Below are positions 7,426 to 46,500 of a stretch of DNA of 64,000 bases, one piece after another (the first letter of the stretch is position 1; every line of letters starts with the position of its first letter). The translations under genes were made by a program, and so were the position numbers. The notes under the pieces are model-generated. The model had not been told where the DNA came from and did not search any database. It was given only the letters and a program-made list of their open reading frames with translations. This DNA comes from Liolophura sinensis (lineage: Eukaryota > Mollusca > Polyplacophora > Chitonida > Chitonidae), in assembly GCF_032854445.1 (NCBI RefSeq), contig NC_088300.1, forward strand, positions 57,758,984-57,822,983. Reading direction: 5' to 3'.

Positions 7426-7564
7426 ATGGATGCGTGTATCGCAGTTGAAAGAGAACTGGACAGAGTTTTGTCAAAGTTCTCTGGTTTACAGGAACACGAT
7501 CGAAAAACCCTAGATGATATCGCACAGTATGTACAAAACATCCGAGAGAATTGGTTGATGGTAG
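7426..7564 (+). CDS. RMND5A: RMND5 exon 1
   Basis: Encodes residues 1-46 and one base of codon 47, starting [20 protein letters not shown]. Two donors lie four bases apart, after 7560 (ATG|GTAGGT) and after 7564 (TAG|GTATTC). Only the second keeps the frame with exon 2, giving the joint WLMV-VPSDQ, so it is chosen. A SINE remnant ends about 260 bases upstream. The 5' UTR and transcription start are not determined. Confidence 0.9.
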
Positions 7565-10500
7565 GTATTCGAACCTCGCTCTAGAGTACCTCAATCTATA
7601 CTTTTGTGAGGTGCCACTACTGGTTACTACCAAGTAAACGTAATAGATAACATTTAGATGTGTTAATAGATGTAACTTTGACATTCGCGTTTGAGTGGTT
7701 ATTATAAAGTTTACTGTGAAATTTGACTCTTTCACAAAAAAACAAACAAACCAAACATCTCGAAACATTTCCAAATTCTAAATTCTGTCAGTTTATGAAA
7801 GTAGGCCTAAGTAAGAGGTATGACCCGCGTCTATCAGGAGTTTTTAGCAGATGATTTGACAACTGGACCATGTTGGGAATATATTATTATTCATTCTAAT
7901 TCACAAAAACAGAAACCTATATACATTATACAGTTATTCAACAGCATGAAATGTACTACTGTATTTCCATATTTTATATTTACATTCTTTCGGTTTGTTG
8001 ACTGACAAAGTAAATGTCCGAATGTTGAATAAGGAGGGAGACCACTTAGCTTGCTCCATTACATATACAGTAAATCAGTGATGATTTCAAAGAAATTGTT
8101 TTACTGGCTAATTGTCTTGTTGAACCAAATTGTAGTACAATGAGGTACTACATCCAGTGACATCCTTTACCTTATGCTATGGAAGTGTTGGTTGATATAA
8201 AGGTTATTTGCGTCTAGTCCGAAATAGAGATGCCAAGGCAACTCTTTTGATGAAAGATGTCATTAGCAGCAAAATACACTCCGATTTGTGGTTTTGCAGT
8301 GATGTCATGGCTGCTCTGAGCCAATCAGCAGCACAATCTTTGGTCACTTGACTAGGGTACTGGAGGTGAAACCCAAGTGAGATAGGTACTAAAGGAGATT
8401 TTCGCATAAAAATTGACAAATATAGCTTTTAGGTGAGAATTTGTTTTTGGAAAAGTAATCAAGATGTATCTTTCCTTCAGGTATGATAGTTTGAATGCCC
8501 TTTAGTTCTTCAAATTTTAGCAGTCGCAAAAATCTGCATTTCGATCATTAGTTCCATGTTATTTATCACCACCTGCTTGTTGCAAGAAACCCAATGCTTG
8601 AAACTATAAATACAAGGAACTGTCTCTTGTATGTAGCAGTTGGATAGTCTTCTTCGAAGGATAAAAAACACTCAATATGGGATATCCTTTGGCTAATTTA
8701 AAACATAAAACATGTTACATCTGTTGATAATTTCTTTATCAGGAAATGCTCTTTCCAAAGTCAGGCATCCACTTGAACAGTCATTATTGTTTAGTAATAT
8801 CTTTGTGGAATCTTATCTCTGCCACAAGGGACCTTCATAAATTCACATGATAGTAAGGATTGATCTGGTGAACAGTTGACGTGTGGGCACTGGTACAAAC
8901 TTGAAGGAAAATTGTTCATGGCTGTAATGTTTTGTGTTTTATTGTGATACCATAATTAGATGTACGTGTACATTTGGACTTTCATCGTTCAAAGGGGAAG
9001 GCCCATCACTATCTCACGAAGTTGCACCCAACAGACTTTTTTTATGTAGGAATGCTTTCAGACATTAATAATGCCCGCCATCATCAAAAAAGTATTGTGG
9101 ACTAATCTGCATGAAACCTGGGTCACACAGGTAATGTTATGTAATAGGCAGACTGGTGGTGTGAACCTTTGTCTCACAGATATACATTAATTGGTAGTGG
9201 GATGAGAGGGGTGGGCGGCAGATGTTAGTCACTGATCAAGCCTGAGAGCCATGTACCTCTCCAGTGAGTTAAATCCTCACATTGAGGTACCTTCCATTAA
9301 AATTATCGTTCCGCTGACCTTCATGGTTTTAGTCCTTTTGTACAGATGATTTTGATTTCATACAGTATCTTTAGTAATTAAGGTACAGTAACGTTTGCTT
9401 CTCAATAGTGTTTTGAATAATTTTACCACACTCATCTTGCCACACTAAATTTCTGTCTGATGTGACAATAACATATTCAGTCCATCATTGTAACATATTG
9501 AAGGCTTATAAAACACACAAAAGGATAGAATGTTCTTTTGTAAACTATTTTGTTATAAGGATAAAGTCAGTTACAAGATGTGTGTAATCTACCAACATCC
9601 ACAATTCCACATGTTTTCCTCATCTTGCTGTTTGAACACATTAATATTTCTAACACCAGAACATGTACTAACCCACCACATGTTGTTGTTACCGCTGCAA
9701 TAGGTATATATTTTACAGTGCCAAGTGACCAGGAGCTGTCTGCCCCTCACAAGCTCATCCTGACACAATGTCTAAGAAAGGTCAGGGACACGATAACCAG
9801 AGTGGGATCAGAACACCGTGACCTCCACAGCTCCGTCTCCAAAGTGGGCAAGGCCATTGACAGGGTTAGTGTAGCTTTCAGATAGTTCTTCATGTGATAC
9901 TGGTGTCAGACAGGATACTATTCAGTATACTAGACACAGTGCATCAGTTTTTTTCATGTACCCCGTTGATTTACTTAAATCATTCAGCATGCTGAATAAA
10001 GTCATTTATAGAATTGAATTTAACATCCTGATATATTTGTTCACATATATTTAAAGACATATTCAGTAAAATTTCTTTTACATGACAGCAGTTGTATGGG
10101 CACAGCAATCCAGAGGAATACCTTTTTTTTTTTTTTTTTTGATGTGTTCATGTAAGAAAGGTGTAAGCAAGCCAGCATGACAATGATTTACTGAAGATAT
10201 CAATTAAAGGCAAGTAATCAACTTTGCTAAAAGAGATAAATTGTCAAATACCTATTAAAGAATGATTCCTGCCCTTTTCCCTCTTTGGCATCCTTCATCT
10301 GTAAAACCTAATATGATCATCGCTTACGGGAAACATGTATGAGTTTGATGTCAAACCACAATCAAATAATTTACATAAACAGACATGAGGTAGCTGAGGT
10401 TTCTAGGGAATTTACATGTGTGTTGTTGTGTTTGTGTTTTCAGAATTTTGTGGCAGAGTTCCATTCAGTGACAACAGCTGGGGTGTTTGAGGGAGAAGAT

Positions 10501-13500
10501 AAAAGCCGACAGTTAAATGAAGTGGTTTGTGAGCACTTTCTACGACAGGGAATGTTGGACATTGCTGAGCAACTTAACGAGGTACGAAAGTAAATACATG
10601 CAGATAACTTACATGTACTGTGTATGGTAAAGTGAGGCAGGGAATGTTGGACATTGCTGACCAGCTTAATGAGGTTCACAAAGGAAATACATAGGATAAC
10701 ATACATGTATTGTATATCGTGAAGTGGGATGTGCTTTTAAATAGCATTATAGGTGTTGTGTCAGAAATCTGTGCCTTGAAATGCCCACTTAACTTTGTTT
10801 AACTCTATAAAATAAGTGAGAACTTTAACTTTAAACTTTTGAATGGTAAAACTAATGCAAAGAGCCAGAATTAACATTGGGCTTATTTATTGGTTAGGCT
10901 GCTGAGCAAATGAGCTGTCTTGACCTTTTTAGTGATGATGTTTCACAAGCACATTGTTAGCAATGCATAAATTTGTGTGCATCTTTCTAACAGCTGGTTT
11001 CAAGAATTTTTCCTACAATAATTTGCTTTTATCCTGTTTATCTTTCAGGAAGCCCAGTTGAATATGTCTGGAGATCAGAAAGAGCCGTTCTTAGAGCTTC
11101 ATCGTATATTAGGGGCTTTAAAGCAGCGGGACATGCAACCAGCATTAAGGTATGTGTTGATAAGGATATATCGATCATCTTGGAGAGGCACTGTGTTTTG
11201 TTTATGAGTACAAATAGGTCGCCTGGTTATAACCTGACATGGTAAAAAGTAAGTTTGACATAAATGTGCTGTCATGTTACTAATATACTTGATATTTTAT
11301 TATCACACTAAATACCATACATGAAAGAATGTGTGATGCTCTTAGTACTGTGCCTATGCAGTATGATACAATTTTTATTCACACAAATTTCTGTGTTTGC
11401 AGATGGGCACAGTTGAATCGCAATCAGCTTCTGGCTCATGGAAGCTCTTTAGAGTTCAAACTTCACAGGTTATACTTCATTGATCTGATCAAACAAGGCC
11501 CAAGTAGGCAGAGAGAAGCCCTTATGTATGCCCGCAATTTTTCCCTCTTTACCAGCCATGACAAAGGTCAGTTTCAAATCATTTGTGAATTATCATAACT
11601 TTGTCCAGTTAAGTAGTATTTCTCATCATACAACCGCCCATGTTAATGCCTGTGTAGTTTTATCTTTGCATCCATAGCAGCATATTACAATGGCCAGCAT
11701 GAACAACTGTTACTGTTACCTGTGTCTGTTATCCTTTCCGTCCACAAATGCCAGTATTTGGTATTAATAATATCTCTAATTGGATATAAATTGAATTTCA
11801 AGATAAACATGATGCATATTCTCCCAGTTGATGATAGATTGAAATGTTATAAAAGAAAAGCTTAAATAACCTGTTACATTTATGAGTAAAACGGTGAAAG
11901 AATAGCCATTTAAAATGAGCTGTGTGATGAAAGTAAACGCATTTTGTTGACTCTTTTGATGTGTTCATCTGTTCATTTTTGTAATGCTTATATATTATAA
12001 ATATTGTTGTCCATTAGACCTGCAGGCATTGATGGGCAGCCTTCTGTACCTGAGACAGGGGATACAGAACTCTCCCTATGCATACCTCTTGGACCCGCTG
12101 TACTGGGATGAGATCTGTGACGTGTTTACTCGTGATGCCTGTGCCCTTATGGGTCTGTCTGTAGAGAGTCCCCTTAGTGTCAGGTATACACCTTGTGACT
12201 ACCCATGGAAAGTCTTATCACTCCAGACATCTATATTTATTGCCTTAATCTAACACTTAAATTTTACTTGCACAGTACAGAAATGTCTTAGTTATCTAGT
12301 CTGCGACTACTGTAAATCTTCAACCCTTTTGACCTTGCATGCACTTTTTTTAGTGGAATTTATGCATACAATTATTATTACGCTAAAATAATTTTTTTGC
12401 ATCACTAAAGGTTTTCTAGTATCCCTTTTGCTTCTCAACTCTATCAGTATACGTATTACGTGTATATTGACATCTGTATGAGAGGTCTACCAGCAGCTGG
12501 CAGACCGTCATGGGTTTCACCCAGGGCTCTGCTCGGTTTTCTCGTACTATAATTCTGGCTGCTGCGGTTTAAGTGAAAAATTCTTGATTGCATCGTAAAA
12601 CCCAAATCAAATGAATAGAGTTTGAAGCACCTCTGTACCTGACTGCATCTGTTTTCTTATATTTAGTACCTCTGCATAGAGAAATGGACCTGCTATTTGG
12701 GAATCAGGGCTGTCATACTGGACAGCTGTTACAAATGGGTGTCATTGTTTATATTTTTGTAGCAAGCTGCATCAAGATTTAGCTAATTTTCACGATGTAA
12801 CTGTTTGTGCCCCGCATCTGTTTGGATACCACTCTTGAAGAAACAAGTGAAACCATCTCCTCCATAAATATTTCTTTGGTTGAGGAAAGTGATGAATGCT
12901 CATCCAATCTCCTTTATATTGGACAGGAAGCTTGGTCACTAACTTATGTGAGCAATTCATAAAAAATAAATACATGTATAATATATACCAATTGTAAATA
13001 TTTATTTTTATTTTTTCTAATGTAACAATGTAGTAATCATAGGTTTGTGTCTCTACTTTTCCAGTATACGGGCTGGTTGTATAGCTCTTCCTCCTTTATT
13101 AAATATTCGTCAAGTGATGCAGGCTCGCCAGTGCTCGAATGTGTGGTCAGCTAAGGATGAATTACCTGTAAGTACTGACAGCTGGTTACATGTCCTAACA
13201 CCCTGAAGACAAATGGCTGAGGGGGCTTTAAAAGTGTTCTTACATGCACCTTTGACCAGTTTGGGATACGTTCTACTGCAGTCAGGATGTTGGTAAGGCA
13301 CCTAATTTCACAAACTGGTTTCCTCCACCAATAAACTTGACCGCTGTTATATTTATAGTATTATTATTATTATTATTATTTATAGGATTATTAAACACAG
13401 TCACATATGTCAAGCATCCCAGTAACTTACTCTTTTCTTTAATTCCTAATAGGTTGTTTCTTGATGTAAGATTGTATAGTGGATAGCCATCATGCTGTAA

Positions 13501-15719
13501 TGTTCTCAGAATGTCTATACCATGTATTACATGTACCATGCAAATACCTCTAACTATTTCAGACCTCTAATGTCTACTTTCCATCATATTAATGTTACTA
13601 AACATTACCGAACACTTAGAATGCCAAAATACCAGGGCAAACCATGCACCTCGGCATACCCAACACTTCAATATATCAACGTTCCAGCATACCCTATACC
13701 TCACCATACCCCATACCCCTGCATACCCCCACACTTCAGCATATCCAACACTAGTACATAAAGCACACCTCAGCATACCCAAAATCTCAATCATGCTCAA
13801 CACCTCAGCATATTCAACACTTCAGAATGCTCAACTCCACAGCATATCCAACACTTCAGAATGCTCAACTCCACAGCATATCCAACTATTCAGGATGCTC
13901 AACTCCACAGCATATCCAACAATTCAGGATGCTCAACTCCACAGCATATCCAACAATTCAGGATGCTCAAACCTCAGCATATCCAACACTTCAGAATGCT
14001 CAACACTTCAGCATATCGAACACTTCAACATGGTCAACACCTCAGCATATTCAACACTTCAGAATGCTCAATTCCACAGCATATCCAACACTTCAGAATG
14101 CTCAACACTTCAACATGCTCAACTCCACAGCATATCCAACACTTCAACATGCTCAACACTTCAGCATATCGAACACCTCAGCATATTCAACACTTCAGAA
14201 TGCTCAACTCCACAGCACATCCAACACTTCAACATGCTCAACACTTCAGCATATCCAACACTTCAGAATGCTCAACACCTCAGCATATCAAACACTTCAG
14301 AATGCTCAACACTTCAGCATATCGAACACTTCAACATGGTCAACACCTCAGCATATTCAACACTTCAGAATGCTCAACTCCACAGCATATCCAACACTTC
14401 AGAATGCTCAACACCTCAGCATATCCTACACTTCAGCATGCTCAACACTTCAGCATATCCAACACCTCAGAATGCTCAACTCCACAGCATATCCAACACT
14501 TCAAAATGCTCAACACCTCAGCATATCCAACACTTCAGAATGCTCAACTCCACAGCATATCCAACACTTCAGAATGCTCAGCACCTCAACATACCCAACA
14601 CTTCAAAATGCTCAACACTTCAGCATACCCAAACTCTCAATCTTGCTCAACTCCTCGGCATATCCAAAACCTTAGCTTAGATGTATCCAAAACCTTGACC
14701 TACCCAACGTATCAACAGTGATCTGTAATCCTGATTTGATTTGTGTTGACCAGGTGGAGATAGACCTAGGCTCTGAGTACCGCTTCCACTCTATATTTGC
14801 CTGTCCGATCCTCCGTCAACAGAGCAGTGAGAACAACCCACCTGTGCGCCTCATGTGTGGTCATGTCATTTCTCAGGATGCCCTCACTAAGCTGGCCAAT
14901 GGCAGCAAGTATGTGTACGTTGTTTGGCAATCAGTGGATTGTTTGCTTTTTTCATTATCATTTTCTCTTGAAAGTAAAGCTAACTTGCTATGTTTGTGCA
15001 TGTAGAAAGTCATTTTTTGCTTATCTGTAAATACACACTATCCCAGTTGGACGTTTTCTTTTGTTTTGGACAGTTTCTCCATGCATTGTTGAAGACTTAC
15101 ACTTTAAAATATTTACACAACCAAAGATTGAATCAGTATGAATAACTTGTAGAATTTGTGCATTTGTGGGTAAATATTACATCTTAATTCATAAGCAGAT
15201 GAATTATTCTGGATAAGATGATCTGGAAGTATTGACATATGAAAATTGATTTTGTGCAGCACCATGTTTACTTTGTTACTTTTGCTGTGAAATGTGCCTT
15301 GATACCCTTAAGGTGTTCCAGACTTCCTCATTTGTTTTGTCATGTAACATTTCCATGACTTTTATGAATACATAGAGATGCTTTTTGCTCTGTTTTGATC
15401 TGTTGAGTAATTTGATATATATTGAGAACTCAAGATATTAAGGAGAAAAAAATGTGGTTAATTAAAAAAGCCAGCAGTGTTACAGTACTTATGAAGGCCA
15501 AGTGGTCATTGTAAATGATTAGTTTTTGTTCTTTTCACTCTGTCAGAAAAGTGGCCTCAACACAAAGAGGATAAATTTTTCAACCTCATGTGCATGTAAT
15601 TTGATTTTGTCCAGTGTGATCCGGATTTTTGTTTTTTTGTTTCTGCTTTACTCAGGGTAAAATGTCCTTATTGCCCGGTGGAACAGAATCCCGAGGAGGC
15701 CAAACGGATTTGTTTCTGA
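7426..15719 (+). CDS. RMND5A: RMND5 (Gid2) RING E3 ubiquitin ligase subunit, 9 exons
   Basis: Exons 7426-7564, 9719-9864, 10444-10581, 11049-11149, 11403-11566, 12018-12183, 13065-13167, 14754-14908 and 15656-15719 join to 1176 nt, that is 391 residues plus stop. This equals the human RMND5A length, and every intron is GT..AG with matching phase. By family knowledge the protein is the RING subunit that, with MAEA, forms the catalytic pair of the CTLH/GID E3 ligase in nucleus and cytoplasm. Visible domains: N-terminal helical part (1-95, [12 protein letters not shown]), LisH (about 114-146, [13 protein letters not shown]), CTLH (about 153-210), CRA-like region ([50 protein letters not shown]), and a Gid-type degenerate RING (336-377) with C336, C354, H356, C374 and C377. 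The C-terminus is RICF, close to the vertebrate QIFF. The start is the ATG matching the vertebrate MDxC start; the in-frame codon at 7402 is GTG, not ATG. Alternative MAEA is excluded by the RING and end sequence. Confidence 0.96.
7565..9718 (+). other. RMND5 intron 1 (2.15 kb)
   Basis: GT..AG intron. It includes dispersed repeat copy B (7930-8050), related to 2815-2960. Otherwise no gene, SINE or array is seen. Confidence 0.85.
7930..8050 (+). repeat. Diverged dispersed repeat, copy B
   Basis: Same block order as 2815-2960 (AAATGTACTAC, CCATATTTTATATTT, TGACTGA, AAATGTC). The two copies have diverged strongly, so this is an old, unclassified repeat. Confidence 0.55.
9719..9864 (+). CDS. RMND5A: RMND5 exon 2
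   Basis: Acceptor TTTTACAG|TG and donor AGG|GTTAGT. It enters in phase 1 and leaves in phase 0. It encodes [20 protein letters not shown] through [13 protein letters not shown], aligned to the vertebrate LTQCCKRIKDT..HSSVSRVGKAIDK block. Confidence 0.95.
9865..10443 (+). other. RMND5 intron 2
   Basis: GT..AG intron of 579 bases with an 18-base T run near 10123-10140. Nothing else is seen. Confidence 0.9.
10444..10581 (+). CDS. RMND5A: RMND5 exon 3 (LisH)
   Basis: Acceptor TTTTCAG|AATTTT and donor GAG|GTACGA, phase 0 at both ends, 46 codons. It carries the LisH motif around [20 protein letters not shown]. The last ~40 bases and the adjoining intron start are tandemly duplicated just downstream (10633-10725). 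Confidence 0.95.
10541..10725 (+). repeat. Tandem duplication of exon 3 end plus intron start
   Basis: 10541-10632 and 10633-10725 are two diverged copies about 92 bases apart. Both have CAGGGAATGTTGGACATTGC, GAxCAxCTTAAxGAGGT, then AAATACAT, ATAAC and TACATGTA. Copy 2 is a pseudo-exon fragment reading [13 protein letters not shown] with a weaker donor (GTTCAC) and no good acceptor. Confidence 0.85.
10726..11048 (+). other. Rest of RMND5 intron 3
   Basis: Intron sequence with a normal pyrimidine tract and acceptor TCTTTCAG. No other feature is seen. Confidence 0.85.
11049..11149 (+). CDS. RMND5A: RMND5 exon 4 (CTLH start)
   Basis: Acceptor CTTTCAG|GAAGCC and donor TTAAG|GTATGT. It enters in phase 0 and leaves with two bases of an Arg codon. 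It encodes [20 protein letters not shown], the start of the CTLH helix bundle. Confidence 0.95.
11403..11566 (+). CDS. RMND5A: RMND5 exon 5 (CTLH/CRA)
   Basis: Acceptor TTTGCAG|ATGGGC and donor AAAG|GTCAGT. It encodes [20 protein letters not shown] followed by [20 protein letters not shown], nearly identical to the vertebrate [27 protein letters not shown] stretch. Confidence 0.95.
11567..12017 (+). other. RMND5 intron 5
   Basis: GT..AG intron of 451 bases; nothing further is seen. Confidence 0.9.
12018..12183 (+). CDS. RMND5A: RMND5 exon 6
   Basis: Acceptor TCCATTAG|ACCTGC and donor TCAG|GTATAC. It encodes [20 protein letters not shown] through [20 protein letters not shown], the most conserved block of the family. 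Confidence 0.95.
12184..13064 (+). other. RMND5 intron 6
   Basis: GT..AG intron of 881 bases that contains a degraded SINE copy (12481-12617). Confidence 0.9.
12481..12617 (+). mobile_element. Degraded SINE fragment in RMND5 intron 6
   Basis: CAGACCGTCATGGGTTTCAC, GGGCTCTGCTCGG, ATAATTCTGGCTGCTGCGGT and AAGTGAAAAATTCTTGATTG follow the order of the SINE body and tail. The head is absent and the copy is clearly old. Confidence 0.8.
13065..13167 (+). CDS. RMND5A: RMND5 exon 7
   Basis: Acceptor TTTTCCAG|TATACG and donor CCT|GTAAGT. It encodes [20 protein letters not shown] followed by [14 protein letters not shown], matching the vertebrate [21 protein letters not shown]. Confidence 0.95.
13168..14753 (+). 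other. RMND5 intron 7, mostly minisatellite
   Basis: GT..AG intron of 1586 bases. An (ATT)n microsatellite lies at about 13358-13382. From about 13640 onward it is a minisatellite. The acceptor is TTGACCAG. Confidence 0.9.
13640..14720 (+). repeat. 17/34-bp minisatellite in RMND5 intron 7
   Basis: About 60 copies of a ~17-base unit, in alternating forms CTCAACACTTCAGCATA and TCCAACACTTCAGAATG, which give a 34-base dimer. The edges are more degenerate (CACCTCGGCATACCCAA) and the centre more uniform, as expected for unequal exchange. All three plus-strand frames stay open for over 280 codons because the unit lacks plus-strand stops. The frames are not evidence of a protein. Confidence 0.95.
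14754..14908 (+). CDS. RMND5A: RMND5 exon 8 (RING, first part)
   Basis: Acceptor GACCAG|GTGGAG and donor GCAA|GTATGT. It begins [20 protein letters not shown] and contains C336, C354 and H356 of the Gid-type RING ([14 protein letters not shown]). The split Lys codon is completed by exon 9. The minisatellite in intron 7 ends only a few tens of bases before this exon. Confidence 0.95.
14909..15655 (+). other. RMND5 intron 8
   Basis: GT..AG intron of 747 bases with no distinct feature; acceptor TTTACTCAG. Confidence 0.9.
15656..15719 (+). CDS. RMND5A: RMND5 exon 9 (RING end and stop)
   Basis: Acceptor TTTACTCAG|GGTAAA. It encodes [20 protein letters not shown] and stop TGA at 15717-15719. C374 and C377 finish the RING. 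The last codons and the stop form the first copy of a 33-bp tandem repeat. Confidence 0.95.
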
Positions 15720-17875: not shown

Positions 17876-18589
17876 AGTAAATAGTCTTTTGTTTTTTTTT
17901 ACACCAGTATGATTAAGACATGTCTTTCATTGTGTGATCTATACTTCAGTATGCCTCTCTTTAGTAACTGTATGAACAGTTTCTGCTTTAGCCTGTGTAA
18001 GTATGTACGTACATGTATATGTGTATGTATGTACGCCTCTTAAATTTTGCCGCTGACTGTAACATAAAATCATCTTTATCATCTACATACCTTCAACTGT
18101 AGCTATAAGGACTGTTCATGGATATACATTGTAGCATGGATATACATACATAAGACAGTCTTCACCTCACGGTCTGGAATCGCCCTGCCACAAGAAGACA
18201 CAGTACACGCACCTAATGACTCTTGGTGTCATATGACTGAAAAACAATTAAGTACAACATAAAGTCCTAAGCATACATTCACACCTACACATCATGATTT
18301 CTCACCTGACAATATAGACATGACACTGAGCTGAGCACTCACCATTCCCTCACCCACACACCTTCACAACTGTACAGTTGTTTAGAGTTTATACACAAAA
18401 CCCTTTTGTGTACATGTTTACAGTTACCTATGCTATCACCATAATGGCAGCTACATGACACTGAACTGTGCAGATGTCACCAGTGTTGGACACTGTCACT
18501 ACTGATGTACACATAACATCCTTTCACAGAGTACCAGTGTTTACCCTTGAGTGTATTGTAGTTTTTTGTGAAGACACAGCATGTCCCAC
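17876..18589. other. Intergenic, unassigned
   Basis: No gene supported; a GTATGTACGTACATG-type short repeat patch lies near 18000-18030. Confidence 0.4.
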
Positions 18590-20300
18590 AGGTAAAAGAC
18601 ACACTGCAGTTCGTCTCACATGAAAAAACAAAAGTGCAGTATGTTTCACATGTAAAGACACTGCAGTATGTCCCACATGTAAGACACACATCAGTATGTC
18701 CCACATGTAAGACACAAAGCAGTCTGTCCCACATGTAAAGACACTGCAGTACGTAACACATATAAAGACACTGCAGTACGAACTACATGTAAAGACACAT
18801 AATGGTGTGTACCACGTAAAGACACACAGAGGTATGTCCCACATGTAAAAGACATTCTGCAGTACGTTCTACATGTGAGACACACTGCAGTACGTCCCAC
18901 ATGTAAAGATGCACTGCAGTACACCCCACAGTAGACATACTGTGGTACGTCCCACATGTAAAGACACACTGCAGTGTGTCCCACATGTAAAGAGAGACAG
19001 CAGTATGTCACACATGTAAAGACACACTGCAGTATGTCCCACGTAAATACACACGGCAGTACGTCCCACATGTAAAAGACACTGAAGTTTGTCCCACATG
19101 TAAAAGACACTGCAGTTTGTCCCATTTGTAAAAGACACTGCAGTATGTCCCACATGTAAAGACACTGCAGTACGTACCACATGTAAAGACACTGCAGTAC
19201 GAACTACATGTAAAGACACATATGGTGTGTACCACGTAAAGACACACAGCGGTATGTCCCACATGTAAAAGACATTCTGCAGTACGTTCTACATGTTTGA
19301 GACACACTGCAGTACGTCCCACATGTAAAGATGCACTGCAGTACACCCTACAGTAGACATACTGTGGTACGTCCCACATGTAAAGACACACTGCAGTATG
19401 TCCCACGTAAATACACACTGCAGTACGTCCCACATGTAAAAGACACTGAAGTTTGTCCCACATGTAAAAGACACTGCAGTTTGTCCCATTTGTAAAAGAC
19501 ACTGCAGTATGTCCCACATGTAAAGATGCACTGCAGTACACCCCACAGTAGACATACTGCGGTACGTCCCACATGTAAAGACACACTGCAGTGTGTCCCA
19601 CATGTAAAGAGAGACAGCAGTATGTCACACATGTAAAGACACACTGCAGTATGTCCCACGTAAATACACACTGCAGTACGTCCCACATGTAAAAGACACT
19701 GAAGTTTGTCCCGCATGTAAAAGACACTGCAGTTTGTCCCATTTGTAAAAGACACTGCAGTATGTCCACATGCAAAGACACACTACAGTACATCCCACAT
19801 GTAAAGACTCACTGCAGTAGGTCTTACATGTAAAGACACGCTACAGTATGTCCCACAAATAAGGACACGCTGCAGTACGTCTCAGATGTAAGACACACAC
19901 TGCAGTATGTCACTTGTAAAGATACTGCAGTATGTCTCACATGTAAAAGACACTGCAGTATGTAGCACATGTTAAGACACACTGCAGTACGGCCCACGTG
20001 TAAAAACACACACTGCAGTATGTCACTTTTGGTAAGATACTGCAGTATGTCCCACATGCAAAGACACACTGCAGAACGTCCCACATGTAAAGACACACTG
20101 AAGTACGTCCCACATGTAACGGGCACTGCAGTATGTCCCACATGTAAAGACACACTGAAGTACGTCCATATGTAAACATGCACTGCAGTACATCCCACAT
20201 GTAAAGACACGCTGCAGTACATCCCACGTGTAAAGACACACTGCAGTACATCCCACGTGTAAAGACACGCTGCAGTACATCCCACGTGTAAAAACACCCA
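18590..20300. repeat. ~30-bp minisatellite with higher-order structure (array 2)
   Basis: Roughly 58 copies of AAAGACACACTGCAGTACGT followed by CCCACATGT, 27-31 bases each. Blocks of variants recur in order: the run near 18751-18990 repeats at about +420 (19171-19410). The run starting at 18901 repeats at +617 (19518-19770). The minus-strand frames (CSVSLHVGHTAV-like) come from the repeat. Confidence 0.95.
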
Positions 20301-26284: not shown

Positions 26285-28516
26285 CTGTAACCAATAGTCA
26301 ACAAAGTTTACATATATTTATTTATTTATTTAATTGTTTTATGCCATATTTCAGTTATATGACATCAGCAATATTATCATTAAATGAACAACAAAATGGC
26401 CGGATGACCATCACAAATATAATTACTGAACAAAAAGGACTTTCCTGCCTTATCTTACTGACTTTTCTTACTCACTGACAGGTGATGGACCAAAATTTCT
26501 TACATTTATATTGTAAGAAATACAGTGTATTTATACAATATTAAATTTGTTTTGCATTTTTTGAGGAACATATGACTTTAATTCAGAAGGTTTAAAATTT
26601 ATAGTAGGTTGAAGATGCAGAAAACATTTCACGGTCAGTGTGTTCAAATGTTATCTGGAGTTGCAGCATAGCATCAGTGAGATTTGTTGTGTTGATTTAC
26701 AACATTCAATAAGTGCAATAAAATACGATGTCCATCTGATAAGCCGTGTTTAGACAACACAATCTGTTGAATGTTACAATAACATAAAATAGCCCACGTT
26801 CTTTTTTCAATGGGCTAGTCGAATCAGATTGGTCGACTCGACAATCGCGCCGTACAAACACAACTTAAGTGAGATCAAACCTTGAGTAACATTAGTCACA
26901 TTTGTGAGTGAATGGGTGAGTGAGGTACCCGCCTAGCCTGTAAGGAGCCATAGCTATAGGATGCATTATTCATTATTCACACAGCCAGCCACTGCCAAGA
27001 AGACTTACTTGCTCCAACACCTTGCAGGAAATACAGAAAACTCTCGGCTAGAGTTGAAGTCTGAAAACAGACAAGGAACATAGATTAAAAACTGACAAAT
27101 TCAAATTTTCAAGATACAAGTCTGAGGTAATACGTGAAAAATTATCAAGCAAAAATCAAATGAGTAAATATATTAACACAAAGTATAGACCCTTTCAACA
27201 TTATAATGTTAACTCTAAACATGGTATAAATGCAGGAAATAATTGACTGCAACCTGGCTCAAATCTAACAATATGGTTGTTGTCAAAAAAATATTAAAGT
27301 TAAATATAAAGTTCAAACTCATTCTACATATTAAATATACATTTGAGTCAAAATGTCAATGTCTGACAGATTTGTTTACACAAAACACTTATCAGTTGTT
27401 CACAATTTAATGTATTTATTTGGTGTTTTACACCGTGCTGAAGAATATTTCACTTATAAGATAGTGGCCAGCATTATGGTGGGAGGAAACCAGGCAGAGC
27501 CAGGGGTATACCCAGGATCATCTGCAGGTTCCTGACAGAATCTACTTGACAATNNNNNNNNNNNNNNNNNNNNNNNNNNNNNNNNNNNNNNNNNNNNNNN
27601 NNNNNNNNNNNNNNNNNNNNNNNNNNNNNNNNNNNNNNNNNNNNNNNNNNNNNNNNNNNNNNNNNNNNNNNNNNNNNNNNNNNNNNNNNNNNNNNNNNNN
27701 NNNNNNNNNNNNNNNNNNNNNNNNNNNNNNNNNNNNNNNNNNNNNNNNNNNNNACAATTCAAATGCCTGAGATTGAAAAAACATTTGTTTGCAAAGCATA
27801 AGCAACTCAAAGTTGCTCTTTGGAAGTGCCCCCAGATCTTTAGTAGAAACCTGCAAGTGGATGTGCATATTAGCTAGTTCCTGTAGCAATATAAATTGGT
27901 CACTCTCAACAGGCCACATGAACAGGCACGTAGGCTCTGTGCCAGTCTTCACTACTGAGAAACTACTGTGATCAGTTACCCTGATCATACAGACACACTA
28001 ACCTTCTCCTCCAAGACATTAGCCACTTCCCTCCACTTCTAACAGCTCCACCTTCTTCTTGTCCAGTTTGTGCAGCATGGCCTGATGAAAGGTGTGGACC
28101 GTGTGGTTAAAGGAGGCCTTGGAGCCTGTCACCAGCAGGGCAGGGCACCTGTTACAACACAGATATGCATGTGTTATTCCAAGACAGAGATGGTCATACC
28201 GTCTATATCATATTACTTACACAATAGGAGTATGGCCTTTACAGAGTAACATTAGTTACTTACAGAACTAAATGGGAATCCACATATGAAAGTATACCAT
28301 AAAGAAAAGCATTCTTTTTTAATAAAAAAATGAGCTGAAATCACATGGATTAAATTTCTTCTAAAAATTTTCAAGCACTCATGTACATGGAAAAAGCTCT
28401 ATTTTCTTACAACATGAAAATATGACCATAGAGGGCGGCACCACTCGGGGTTCAAAGTGTCCCAACACGCAGATCAAGTTCAAATTCTGTTGTGACAAAA
28501 TTGTGGCCTTTTGGAG

Positions 28517-40500: not shown

Positions 40501-43500
40501 TTGTCGTAAATATTGTTCTACACTTGCAGATTTCATAATGCGGCAGAAATACATGTAGTTACGTAAGCGAGAATGCTACATGTACCATATTCACCATGTG
40601 GGCTTCTTTAGATCTTCCCAAAGTGAAAAGGCACAAACAACATGTGGTGTACTGCTGTTTTGGTGAGAATCAGATGAGCTTCTGCTTACATGTACTTCTC
40701 TTCGGGCTATGGGATGCAAGCATTTGGTGAGGGTTTCATGTGAACTGCGCTTGTTGTATCAGTAATAATTTCTCCTTTGTGAGATATACACATGTATAAG
40801 TGGAGTTGCATAACCTTACACAAACAGAGCCGAAACAAAGTTATATGGCAATAAGAACTGATTGCAAACAGTACTTGTTTTATTGAACATGCAGCTTGAA
40901 TTATAATGCAACCCACTAAGCCATGCACTCTATGAAGCAAGTGGCAAAAAAAAAAAATCCCTATATGTTTTATTTATGCTTGGTACAAGAAATCCATATA
41001 ATTAGCACATTCTCCGACATCATGTACACTGTGACACTTCGCAATTCCTTTGCTCCAACATACGTGTACATGATGGAATCCTGCCCCACCCACAAGCATT
41101 GTGAGTACCTCAAATACCCACACATGCCCCAGGACAGAGAAATCCTAAAACAGTTTTATTTCTGCACATGTGCATGCCAAAAAGTTGAACCAGCGCTTCT
41201 CCACATACATGTATGTCTATTCCTCTACACAGACAGAAGTACATGCAAATGTAAATAACGTATAGGTTAGTCTGTGGCCAGTGGTAGGGGAAGATTTGAT
41301 TTCCAAGTGGTGAGGGTAAACAGGCAATCAGCACGCCCCTCTTACACAATGCAGCTGTATTCCAGACAGCCCTCTGCCTGTGCCAGGGAGTACCAGGGAG
41401 AAGTTCAGGGTTTGCAGTCTGCACTACATGTACTGCTAGCCCAACTCTATATTCAGTGATAAACACTGGGGATGAGGCCATTATGGAACCATACTGAATA
41501 AACCTGGTGTACTGGCCTTGCACTTCCCTCAAAATCAGGCCAGTGGTAGATTAGGTTATCACTAAGGGCACAGGAGTGTAGGCTACCAATCAACTGGGCT
41601 GCCCAAGAATAACACTACATGTACATGTGACTAGTGCCTATAGATGCACACGCTGTGTATACGTGCAGCAGAAAATCACTTTTCTTTGTCATGGATTTCA
41701 TGTCTTTTACTAGATACATGTATGCACAGTTTTCTAGCCTAAAATTTTGGCCAGCCTATTAATGCTAGTATGGTGCAGCAATTACATGTGCCAAACCTTT
41801 CTCTAATCAGAAAAGAGAGAATATCTGCATGACACAATCATTCTTAAGTGAGAGTGGTGCCCGGAATTCCACTGGTCTATTCGCCTGGCGCTTGATGTCA
41901 AAGTAAAACTGATCTAGTGCCTCGGAGAATCATGATGACGTCAACAATAACACAATTGGTATTTAACATGTGGAAAGAAGTTTGGTCTCCTGGGCTCTGC
42001 TGATGTCCTGTTATATAGGAATTCAAAGTCTGAAATTTGAAAGCCTGTGTCACAGTCACTGAAACAGTTCGTATTTATGGCTCCACTGCACAAACTCTTC
42101 ATCGACACTTCCACATGGAAAAAGGCAACTCTTAAACATCATTTAGGCATAGTAATGGATGGTTTTGCAGAAAATACTATGCTGGCTTGGTCAGACAAAC
42201 TTGGGACAAAAAAACTCCATACAGAATTATGGCTTCAAAACATTCCTGAAAGTTCTAAATGGCCTGGTTGTACACATACATTGCTGTTCTTTAAAGTTAT
42301 GGACAATTTAAAAGTGTACATTTACTGTTCTCTGAAGTCAAGGACAGCTTGGAAATGAACATAATACCGTTTTCTGAAGTCATGAACAGTTTAACAGTGT
42401 ACATTTACTGTTCTCTGGAGTAATGGACAGCTTTGAAATGAACATAACACTGTTCTCTGAAGTCATGGACAGTTTATTACAGTGTACATTTACTCCTCTA
42501 TGGAGTCATGGACAGTTTATTAGTGTACATTTACTCTTCTCTGGAGTCATGGCCAGTTTATTACAATGTACATTTCCTGTTCTCTGATATCATGGACAGC
42601 TTGGAAATGAACATAATTCTTTTCTCTGAAGTCATGGACAGTTTATTACAGTGTATATTTACTGTTCTCTGAAGTTATGGACAGCTTGGGCATGAACATA
42701 ATACTGTTCTCTGAAGTCATGGACAGTTTATTACAGTGTACATTTACTGTTCTCTGGAGTCATGGACAGCTTAGTAGTGAACATAGCACAGTTCTCTGAA
42801 GTCATGGATAGTTTATTACAGTGTACATTTACTGTTCTCTGGAGTCCTGAACAGCTTAGTAGTGAACATAGCACAGTTCTCTGAAGTCATGGATAGTTTA
42901 TTAGTGTACATTTACTGTTCTCTGGAGTCATGGACAGCTTAGTAATGAACATAATACAGCTCTCTGAAGTCATGGATAGTTTATTACAGTGTACATTTAC
43001 TGTTCTCTGGAGTCATGGACAGCTTAGTAGTGAACATAACACAGTTCTCTGAAGTCATGGATAGTTTATTACAGTGTACATTTACTGTTCTCTGGAGTCC
43101 TGAACAGCTTAGTAGTGAACATAACACAGTTCTCTGAAGTCATGGATAGTTTATTACAGTGTACATTTACTGTTCTCTGGAGTCATGGACAGCTTAGTAA
43201 TGAACATAATACAGCTCTCTGAAGTCATGGATAGTTTATTACAGTGTACATTTACTGTTCTCTGGAGTCCTGAACAGCTTAGTAGTGAACATAGCACAGT
43301 TCTCTGAAGTCATGGATAGTTTATTACAGTGTACATTTACTGTTCTCTGGAGTCATGGACAGCTTAGTAGTGAACATAACACAGTTCTCTGAAGTCATGG
43401 ATAGTTTATTACAGTGTACATTTACTGTTCTCTGGAGTCATGGACAGCTTAGTAATGAACATAATACAGCTCTCTGAAGTCATGGATAGTTTATTACAGT

Positions 43501-46500
43501 GTACACTTACTGTTCTCTGGAGTCCTGAACAGCTTAGTAATGAACATAATGGACAGTTCAACAGCATTTATACATGTATAAAGCCCTACAATATACATGT
43601 ATACACGCTCATTTAGGTAATGGTGAATTCCGTGGTAATTTACCACTGTCTTTCTGGTCTTCCTTGTGGGGACCATTAATCAGTCTTAAAGCCTGTTCTC
43701 TAAATGGACAGATGTGTCAATGTTATTAGATGCGACTCACAGCTAATGAGTACACGTATATTGATTTAAAAGACACACCAGATATATGAAGCAATCATGA
43801 TTTGCAATGCAATATCATCTTTTGAACTGATTGGATCATCCCCTATAATTGAGTTTATGCTTGGTTGACCAACAAGCAAAAGGTACTTTTTTATGAAACA
43901 CAAATATTTAACACTGTAACTGTTCTCTCTATGAAATCAACATATGTTATGACTAAAAGTTGCTTACAGAAAACAGAAGCTAATATATGAAGGTGAAGTA
44001 AACAGTTTACCTGTAGTGCATGTACAATAGACCACTGCTTTGATGAAAAATGAGGAACTCATTTCTTTTTATAATAAATGTACATGATCATTCCTACCCT
44101 CTGTAGAAGATTATGTGTCATTTGGCTCTGACTGTACATGTATTTTAGCAAATGCCCACATTGATATTTTATCAGTATATAATATAAACCGCATGTTATG
44201 AAACCATTCCCCAAAAAAGCAACAACCTTTCAGCATCATTCATTAATTACATGTACGCCCACATAGTTTTTCCTGATTTAGTTACATGATCTAATAGCCA
44301 GTCCTACACTTGATCCCAAAAGCAGTATTCTCACAAAATATCATTGTTACTGGAATCCTACAATCGCTCTTAAAACAATAAATGTAAATATAAATAAAAA
44401 ACATAAACCTGGACAGCAAATCTGAAAAATCTGTCTCAACCAGTATAGCTTTTATCTTCTTCGTGTCACCATTTTTGGATGGATGGGTGGATACATGAAT
44501 ATTGTACATACAACTGTACTTTCCTTTTCCAACTGCAATCTGATGCATTTAGATCATGGCTGCCTTAATAAAATATGGCAGCCTCTGGCATTTTGTAATT
44601 TATAGAGCCCCACCACTAAGCCAATCACCGTAATTCATGGTGTTGGGGCATCTGGAAGAATTTGCTGTAATCCTGACAAATTAGCAAAAATGATAGCAGA
44701 TGATCTTGGATCTGTAGAGTTAAGATAAGCCTGGCTGCCTGTCAGCAGATTTCATGCATGCACATTCTCAGTCACAAGATTTCTTTCAAAAAAAAAACTT
44801 GTTTGGCGTCTCATAAACAATCCTCAGTATGTGAAAGTCAATGACCCTTGCAAACATGATTATGATACCTGGATAAACTAGGGTAGGTTGACCTGCTTGA
44901 TGACAGGAGCTCTACAGGTGCAAAACCACCCTCAAATAATACTATACCCAGAACACCTAGCTAGATCAAAATACATGCAGGGCAATATCAAGAACAAACT
45001 TAAGATCCAGAAAATGTTTTGGTACCGAAATTCTTGGGCTTCCAAACTGAAAATGAACAAAAATATGATCGCTTTGTTACAAAACCCTTTTCCCTCACTG
45101 ACTTTAAATCTCTCTGAAAGCATATTTTTTATGAGTTGGATTTTACAAAATTTTTTCAATGTACAGTCACAATGTCACTTTAAATGTTTGGGATCAGAAA
45201 TGAATTTTTTTTCTAGACATGGGCTGGAACCCATGAACAGCTGTACAAAGTTCTTGCACTTATTTGTTTGAAGTGCATGCACTCCTAGAAATCATTTTAC
45301 CAGCATAATGTATTTGATTTCAAAGATTGTTCAGAACTTCAGTGCATTTGTAGGTACATATACATGTGTATGTATGTATGCTTCAAGTTTTACGTCGTAC
45401 TTAATATTTCAGTCATATGACAATTACCATCACTTTAAAACAAGTTTAAGTATTACACTTTTATTCATAACACTTATTCTACAGCCTGTTGATCTGCTAT
45501 GCAGGTATCAGCATTATATAGTGTCCACCTGACCTAGGTGGGTCATTTTCCTAAGAAACAGGCGACAACAGAAGCTACTTTTTATTTGTGGAAGGTGCGT
45601 TTTACCTCATTAATTGTGTAAATTCTTGAACTATTTTTGTTTCAAAAACAAGCACATTAAAATTTCATAACTAGGCACAGTTTAAATCCACAGCGTCTCC
45701 ACTGATATCACCACAATATGGCTGAAACATTGCCGTTGTGGGGTTAAGCCAAAATCATTTATTCATTCTGCACTGATATTCGCACGGTGACATCTGCGAC
45801 GTATGTACTCTGCTTACTGGGACTGAGGCTTTAGTTCAACATTCAGTGTCACCAACATGACATAATAGGTTGGACTGTACTTTTGCAGGTAGCCAAGTAC
45901 GCTCATATAAAGGCACTTTTCACTCAAGACTAATAGAAAAAGCAGTTTGGTGAGCTTTATTTTTATTTGATATACTTTATTCTGGCAATGATTTTTAAAG
46001 AAAACAAAATTTTTTTAAAAATTCTGAGTGTTGAAAGTCAGGCAAAATTTTACATTTATACCTTTTGTGTATTGCATACATTAGTAAAAGGACAAATTCT
46101 ACCTATACAAAGGCATTTTTAATCTTCAATTCATAAAAACGTATTTCGCTGAACACAATTTTTTTTCTTACTCCATATGATTTGTTCTTGCAACAATTGC
46201 TCTCACTTTACGAATTTTTTCAAAGTGTGAGTCTTTTGAGTAAAATGTATTGAGGTAACTTTATCATTTCAATCTGCAGTTTAGTATTTGTTGAAGGAGA
46301 ACCCCAACAAGTTTATTTTCACACTAAATGTTCAGTAAACACAATATTTGTGCTATGTTAGTCCGTAAACTGCATTTAAAAAACTATTATGTAAAACTAG
46401 TTCCATTAAAAAAAAAAAAAAAAACTATTAAAGTTGGACCTTCTGACTATCTTGTTAACCGGGGAGCCCTGGCAGGGTGACATCATGATGTGAATACCTG

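Follow-up and report, generated by a model that had tools for sequence, protein, structure and literature searches.

The described proteins closest to the product of the present gene are those of the NDRG family (PF03096; NDRG1, 6zmm; NDRG2, 2xmq; NDRG3, 6l4b), which have the alpha/beta-hydrolase fold. Counting both of its reading frames, the gene resembles the family along columns 26-282 of the Ndr profile, and it shares with the family the ILTxHDxGxNH start and the LAE-F-YFxQGxG last helix; it is unlike the family in that its assembled exon 11 has one base too many, and nothing else in the parts read was unusual. For the surplus base itself the closest described case comes from long-read vertebrate assemblies, in which the commonest errors before polishing were short consensus-calling indels that gave amino-acid frameshifts, and in which the TLK1 locus, left unpolished, showed frameshift errors (PMC8081667). 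TLK1 would be like the present locus in that a gene acquired a frameshift error in a locally less reliable stretch, and unlike it in that an alternate haplotype drew the polishing reads at TLK1, whereas the cause at NDRG is deduced from proximity to a run of 200 Ns (PMC8081667).

The window, by which we mean the whole 64-kb stretch of DNA that was analysed, carries the NDRG gene on its minus strand. Eight upstream exons, recognized by their splice signals and open in one frame, were located at 39373-39319, 38889-38772, 38377-38315, 37976-37916, 37571-37485, 36158-36081, 30344-30229, and 29430-29395. Exon 12 (27060-27009, minus strand; 52 nt, TSTLAESFLYFLQGVGA) was placed by tblastn, splice phases, and structure-sequence alignment, and exon 13 (26284-26031, minus strand; 254 nt including the stop) by motif search and phases; the SLDGVGRSRS tail of exon 13 resembles SLDGTRSRS, which we take to be the tail of vertebrate NDRG proteins. 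AG acceptors were present in all ten of these exons and their phases were compatible, GT donors were present in 9/9 exons where a donor exists, and nine of the ten located NDRG donors had a G at position +5. The first-pass annotation had described all twelve exons other than exon 11 as intact; this was borne out for the ten located, and the two most 5' exons were not found in the window by motif searches and tblastn. A second frameshift, in exon 4, was suggested by the occurrence at the start of this exon (38888-38874) of HDVGT, close to the HDxG motif of NDRG, in the wrong frame; we concluded that this was a coincidence, because the true motif, HDLG, belongs to the exon before it (39373-39319), and across the junction the phases give HDLGCNH/TMWARFVNHPDV, which aligns to NDRG1 and NDRG3.

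Exon 11, so numbered in the first-pass annotation, was delimited by splice signals, phases, and three-frame translation at 28148-28003 of the minus strand, and it contains the break in frame. Its splice sites were both clean on direct reading, with gtaacag (longer, gtgttgtaacag) immediately before the exon and gttagt (longer, gttagtgtg) immediately after it. At 146 nt the exon exceeds by one base the 145 nt that the phases of its neighbors lead one to expect, and it is out of phase with them by that base: the upstream exons deliver phase 2 to it, it ends in phase 1, and exons 12 and 13 require phase 0. Translation of the minus strand in frame 1 gave CPALLVTGSKASF...VELLEVEGSG followed by a stop, in full QCPALLVTGSKASFNHTVHTFHQAMLHKLDKKKVELLEVEGSG, so that, read literally, the stop comes three residues past the end of the conserved frame. 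This premature TAA (28021-28019, minus strand), placed by direct reading and splice-derived distances, is followed by the exon 11/12 junction after 16 nt and by the last exon junction after 68 nt. In frame 2 the sequence EVANVLEEK continues as far as the donor, and the frame that it leaves is the open frame of exons 12 and 13. The single-base frameshift, the run of the conserved frame into TAA, and the fit of the downstream half and its splice phase to the next frame, all of which had been proposed beforehand, were thus confirmed. The surplus base had also been assigned to a GGG run; such a run, GGG on the coding strand and CCC on the plus strand, does occur at 28029-28031, where the two conserved frames meet, but the sequence by itself shows that the break falls after VELLEVE and before EVANVLEEK and does not fix which base is surplus. 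A change of frame throughout the exon offers no rescue, as there is at least one stop in each of its three frames. By blastn no duplicate of exon 11 was found within the 64-kb window, the longest other match being 13 bp.

To what extent the two frames belong together can be judged from the profile matches, for which the PF03096 cut-off is 23.3 bits. The eight upstream exons and exon 11 up to the break matched Ndr with 235 bits (columns 26-254 of 283, E 9.5e-70), and a 27-residue piece made of the other frame and exon 12 matched columns 258-280 with 13.9 bits, which is below the cut-off. When exon 11 was taken from its start, with its two frames joined by an X, and was extended by exon 12 and the beginning of exon 13, the score was 45.1 bits over columns 220-282. 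Read to its stop, the upstream frame of this exon by itself gave 23 bits (columns 220-257), and the frame 2 tail, extended in the same way, gave 12.2 bits. The extension alone, from exon 12 into exon 13, yielded no profile match. Searches with Pfam profiles likewise matched no family to the literal tail of exon 11 in frame 1, from its first to its second stop, and gave no Ndr match for the C-terminal tail piece alone, for which just a sub-threshold Ysc84 match appeared. Among the sequences of solved structures, a search with just the peptide of exon 11 retrieved no NDRG; the two-frame reading of the located exons, to part of exon 13, retrieved NDRG1 (6zmm; phmmer E 2.2e-33) and NDRG3 (6l4g; E 5.9e-29), with alignments that covered exon 12 and extended through the last helix. 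Both its match to the Ndr profile and its likeness to NDRG proteins of solved structure mark the gene as an NDRG. On the same alignments the two frames are two halves of one conserved domain, and the break exceeds chance. In the assembled sequence the break in exon 11 interrupts the frame that would run through the Ndr domain; we infer that this interruption belongs to the assembly and not to the gene.

The only N run in the window occupies 27554-27753, is exactly 200 bases long, and interrupts the intron that separates NDRG exons 11 and 12; from its near edge it is 249 bp to exon 11 and 275 bp to the three-base run. In an assembly scaffolded with YaHS, 54 gaps are described as each marked by 200 Ns (PMC12134992). 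Because of this correspondence in size, we read the N run as a probable scaffold join, so that 275 bp would separate the lesion from what looks like the end of a contig; N runs are, however, also produced by masking and by other scaffolding programs. The order of the NDRG exons continues across the run, supporting a join. Its two edges share, end to start, the five bases ACAAT, a weak similarity; the 1-kb flanks otherwise showed no shared alignment by blastn at E 1e-3. A dispersed repeat has one copy at 27405-27539 that stops 14 bp short of the N run; this copy may be the reason why the contig broke off here. Relatives of this repeat lie on both strands near 1105, 5611, 17747, 30687, 39775, 56211, and 59818, and their pieces are 78-87% alike. 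A dispersed repeat ending in CACCAAATAAATA lends the window a molluscan appearance; a literature search with 12 bases of that repeat gave no match.

The only other gene identified in the window was an RMND5-like gene on the plus strand (7426-15716), which tblastn with an RMND5A probe revealed as nine pieces, at least 244 bases apart, that covered most of the probe; one piece matched RMND5A (8pjn) with E 4e-13. No switch of frame within an exon was seen in it by tblastn, a weak control since the pieces are one-frame by construction and one is partly intron-like. It is suggestive that the one break in the coding sequence examined falls near the one gap of the window. In a 92-bp tandem duplication at 10546-10726, the 3' end of an RMND5 exon occurs twice together with what follows it, the peptide of the second copy lying at 10635-10667. 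Long minisatellites were observed at 13685-14667 (17/34-bp units), 18577-20297 (29-bp units), and 42313-43559 (85-bp units), the first two of which run through long open reading frames, probably by virtue of their unit structure alone. Within the 64-kb window no tRNA was found, and no Rfam family matched at its gathering threshold.

We consider it very probable that the surplus base in exon 11 is a local assembly or consensus error. Assembly error had been put forward as the simplest reading before the N run was taken into account, and the run at 27554-27753 strengthens it: read support is usually thinnest at contig ends. We propose that the assembly misrepresents an ordinary invertebrate NDRG gene by a single base of exon 11, through an error of consensus or assembly that arose near an apparent contig end and shows up as one base too many in a short run of G, and that the genomic gene would most likely be frame-intact and yield a normal NDRG protein. 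Two observations temper this proposal. The run is only three bases long, and thus is no classic site of long-homopolymer error; and exon 12, at 493 bp from the other apparent contig end across the gap, is free of errors, so that proximity to a gap does not by itself imply them. The main rival is a recent loss-of-function allele, heterozygous or strain-specific, really present in the sequenced animal, which we regard as unlikely. According to this explanation the stop in exon 11 would cost the protein its C-terminal tail and the final portion of the hydrolase fold, and nonsense-mediated decay, for which the usual rule is 50-55 nt, would probably destroy the transcript; as 68 nt separate the stop from the last junction downstream, more than that distance, the mRNA is expected to be subject to decay. 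Such an allele would agree with the otherwise clean state of exon 11 and with the fact that populations segregate single-base indels; against it, the nearness of the 200 Ns makes error, in our judgment, the likelier source. With error as the favored source, the surplus base would, we infer, be absent from the animal, and the organism itself most likely does not have the lesion.

The remaining alternatives accept the base as genuine and ask how the gene could live with it. A shortened NDRG, fixed in the species and ending at VELLEVEGSG, would take the literal reading at its word, in that a clean stop follows just after the conserved frame; we hold this to be very improbable. Exons 12 and 13 (306 nt) have one frame open to a single terminal stop, namely the frame left by EVANVLEEK, versus two stops in each of the other frames; the last helix LAESFLYFLQGVGA and the tail MPRMVRQSSLDGVGRSRSKS, both encoded after the premature stop, remain family-like, so that constraint has not visibly lapsed. 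Because the sequence beyond the stop is open and family-like, an old or fixed shortening is unlikely, and the position of the stop predicts decay of the mRNA rather than a stable short product; the shortened protein raised in the first-pass annotation as the interesting alternative has consequently lost ground on both counts. The eleven located exons carried a single lesion, and with open sequence after the stop the gene does not have the several lesions or relaxed constraint of a pseudogene. A surplus base could also be genuine and be bypassed by splicing. GT sites in phase occur in exon 11 before the TAA at offsets 16, 49, 97, and 112, and out of phase at 105 and 122, the rest lying past the start of the TAA; of the in-phase sites, the one at offset 97 was weighed as a rival. 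This internal donor, AAG/GTGGAG, 97 nt into the exon, would join exon 12 in phase and delete about 16 residues before the last helix. It lacks the +5 G found in nine of ten located NDRG donors, the regular donor GTTAGT is closer to consensus, and its product scored 20.6 bits against Ndr, compared with 45.1 for the two-frame reading; bypass by this donor thus seems extremely improbable, and that a surplus base both real and common in the species is tolerated because such splicing keeps NDRG useful is a notion to which we give hardly any credence. Programmed +1 ribosomal frameshifting would link both conserved frames by a single +1 step; at that step direct reading revealed neither a stop codon nor any known slippery motif, antizyme being, to our knowledge, the only well-known animal case of +1 frameshifting, and we consider such a mechanism here almost vanishingly improbable.

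Returning to a local assembly or consensus error, the explanation that we favor, the finding is an ordinary one and carries little biological weight. Literature searches combining NDRG with mollusc, and NDRG with frameshift and premature stop, returned no title among the matches listed that describes a lesion in NDRG exon 11. The consequences would lie mainly in how the gene is read by others: automatic annotation might shorten NDRG here or add a false micro-intron, so that comparative work could claim a false loss of the gene, and distance to scaffold gaps would provide a quick filter for frameshift findings of this kind. If, on the other hand, the lesion were real and common, this would be an animal that tolerates loss of the conserved C-terminus of NDRG.
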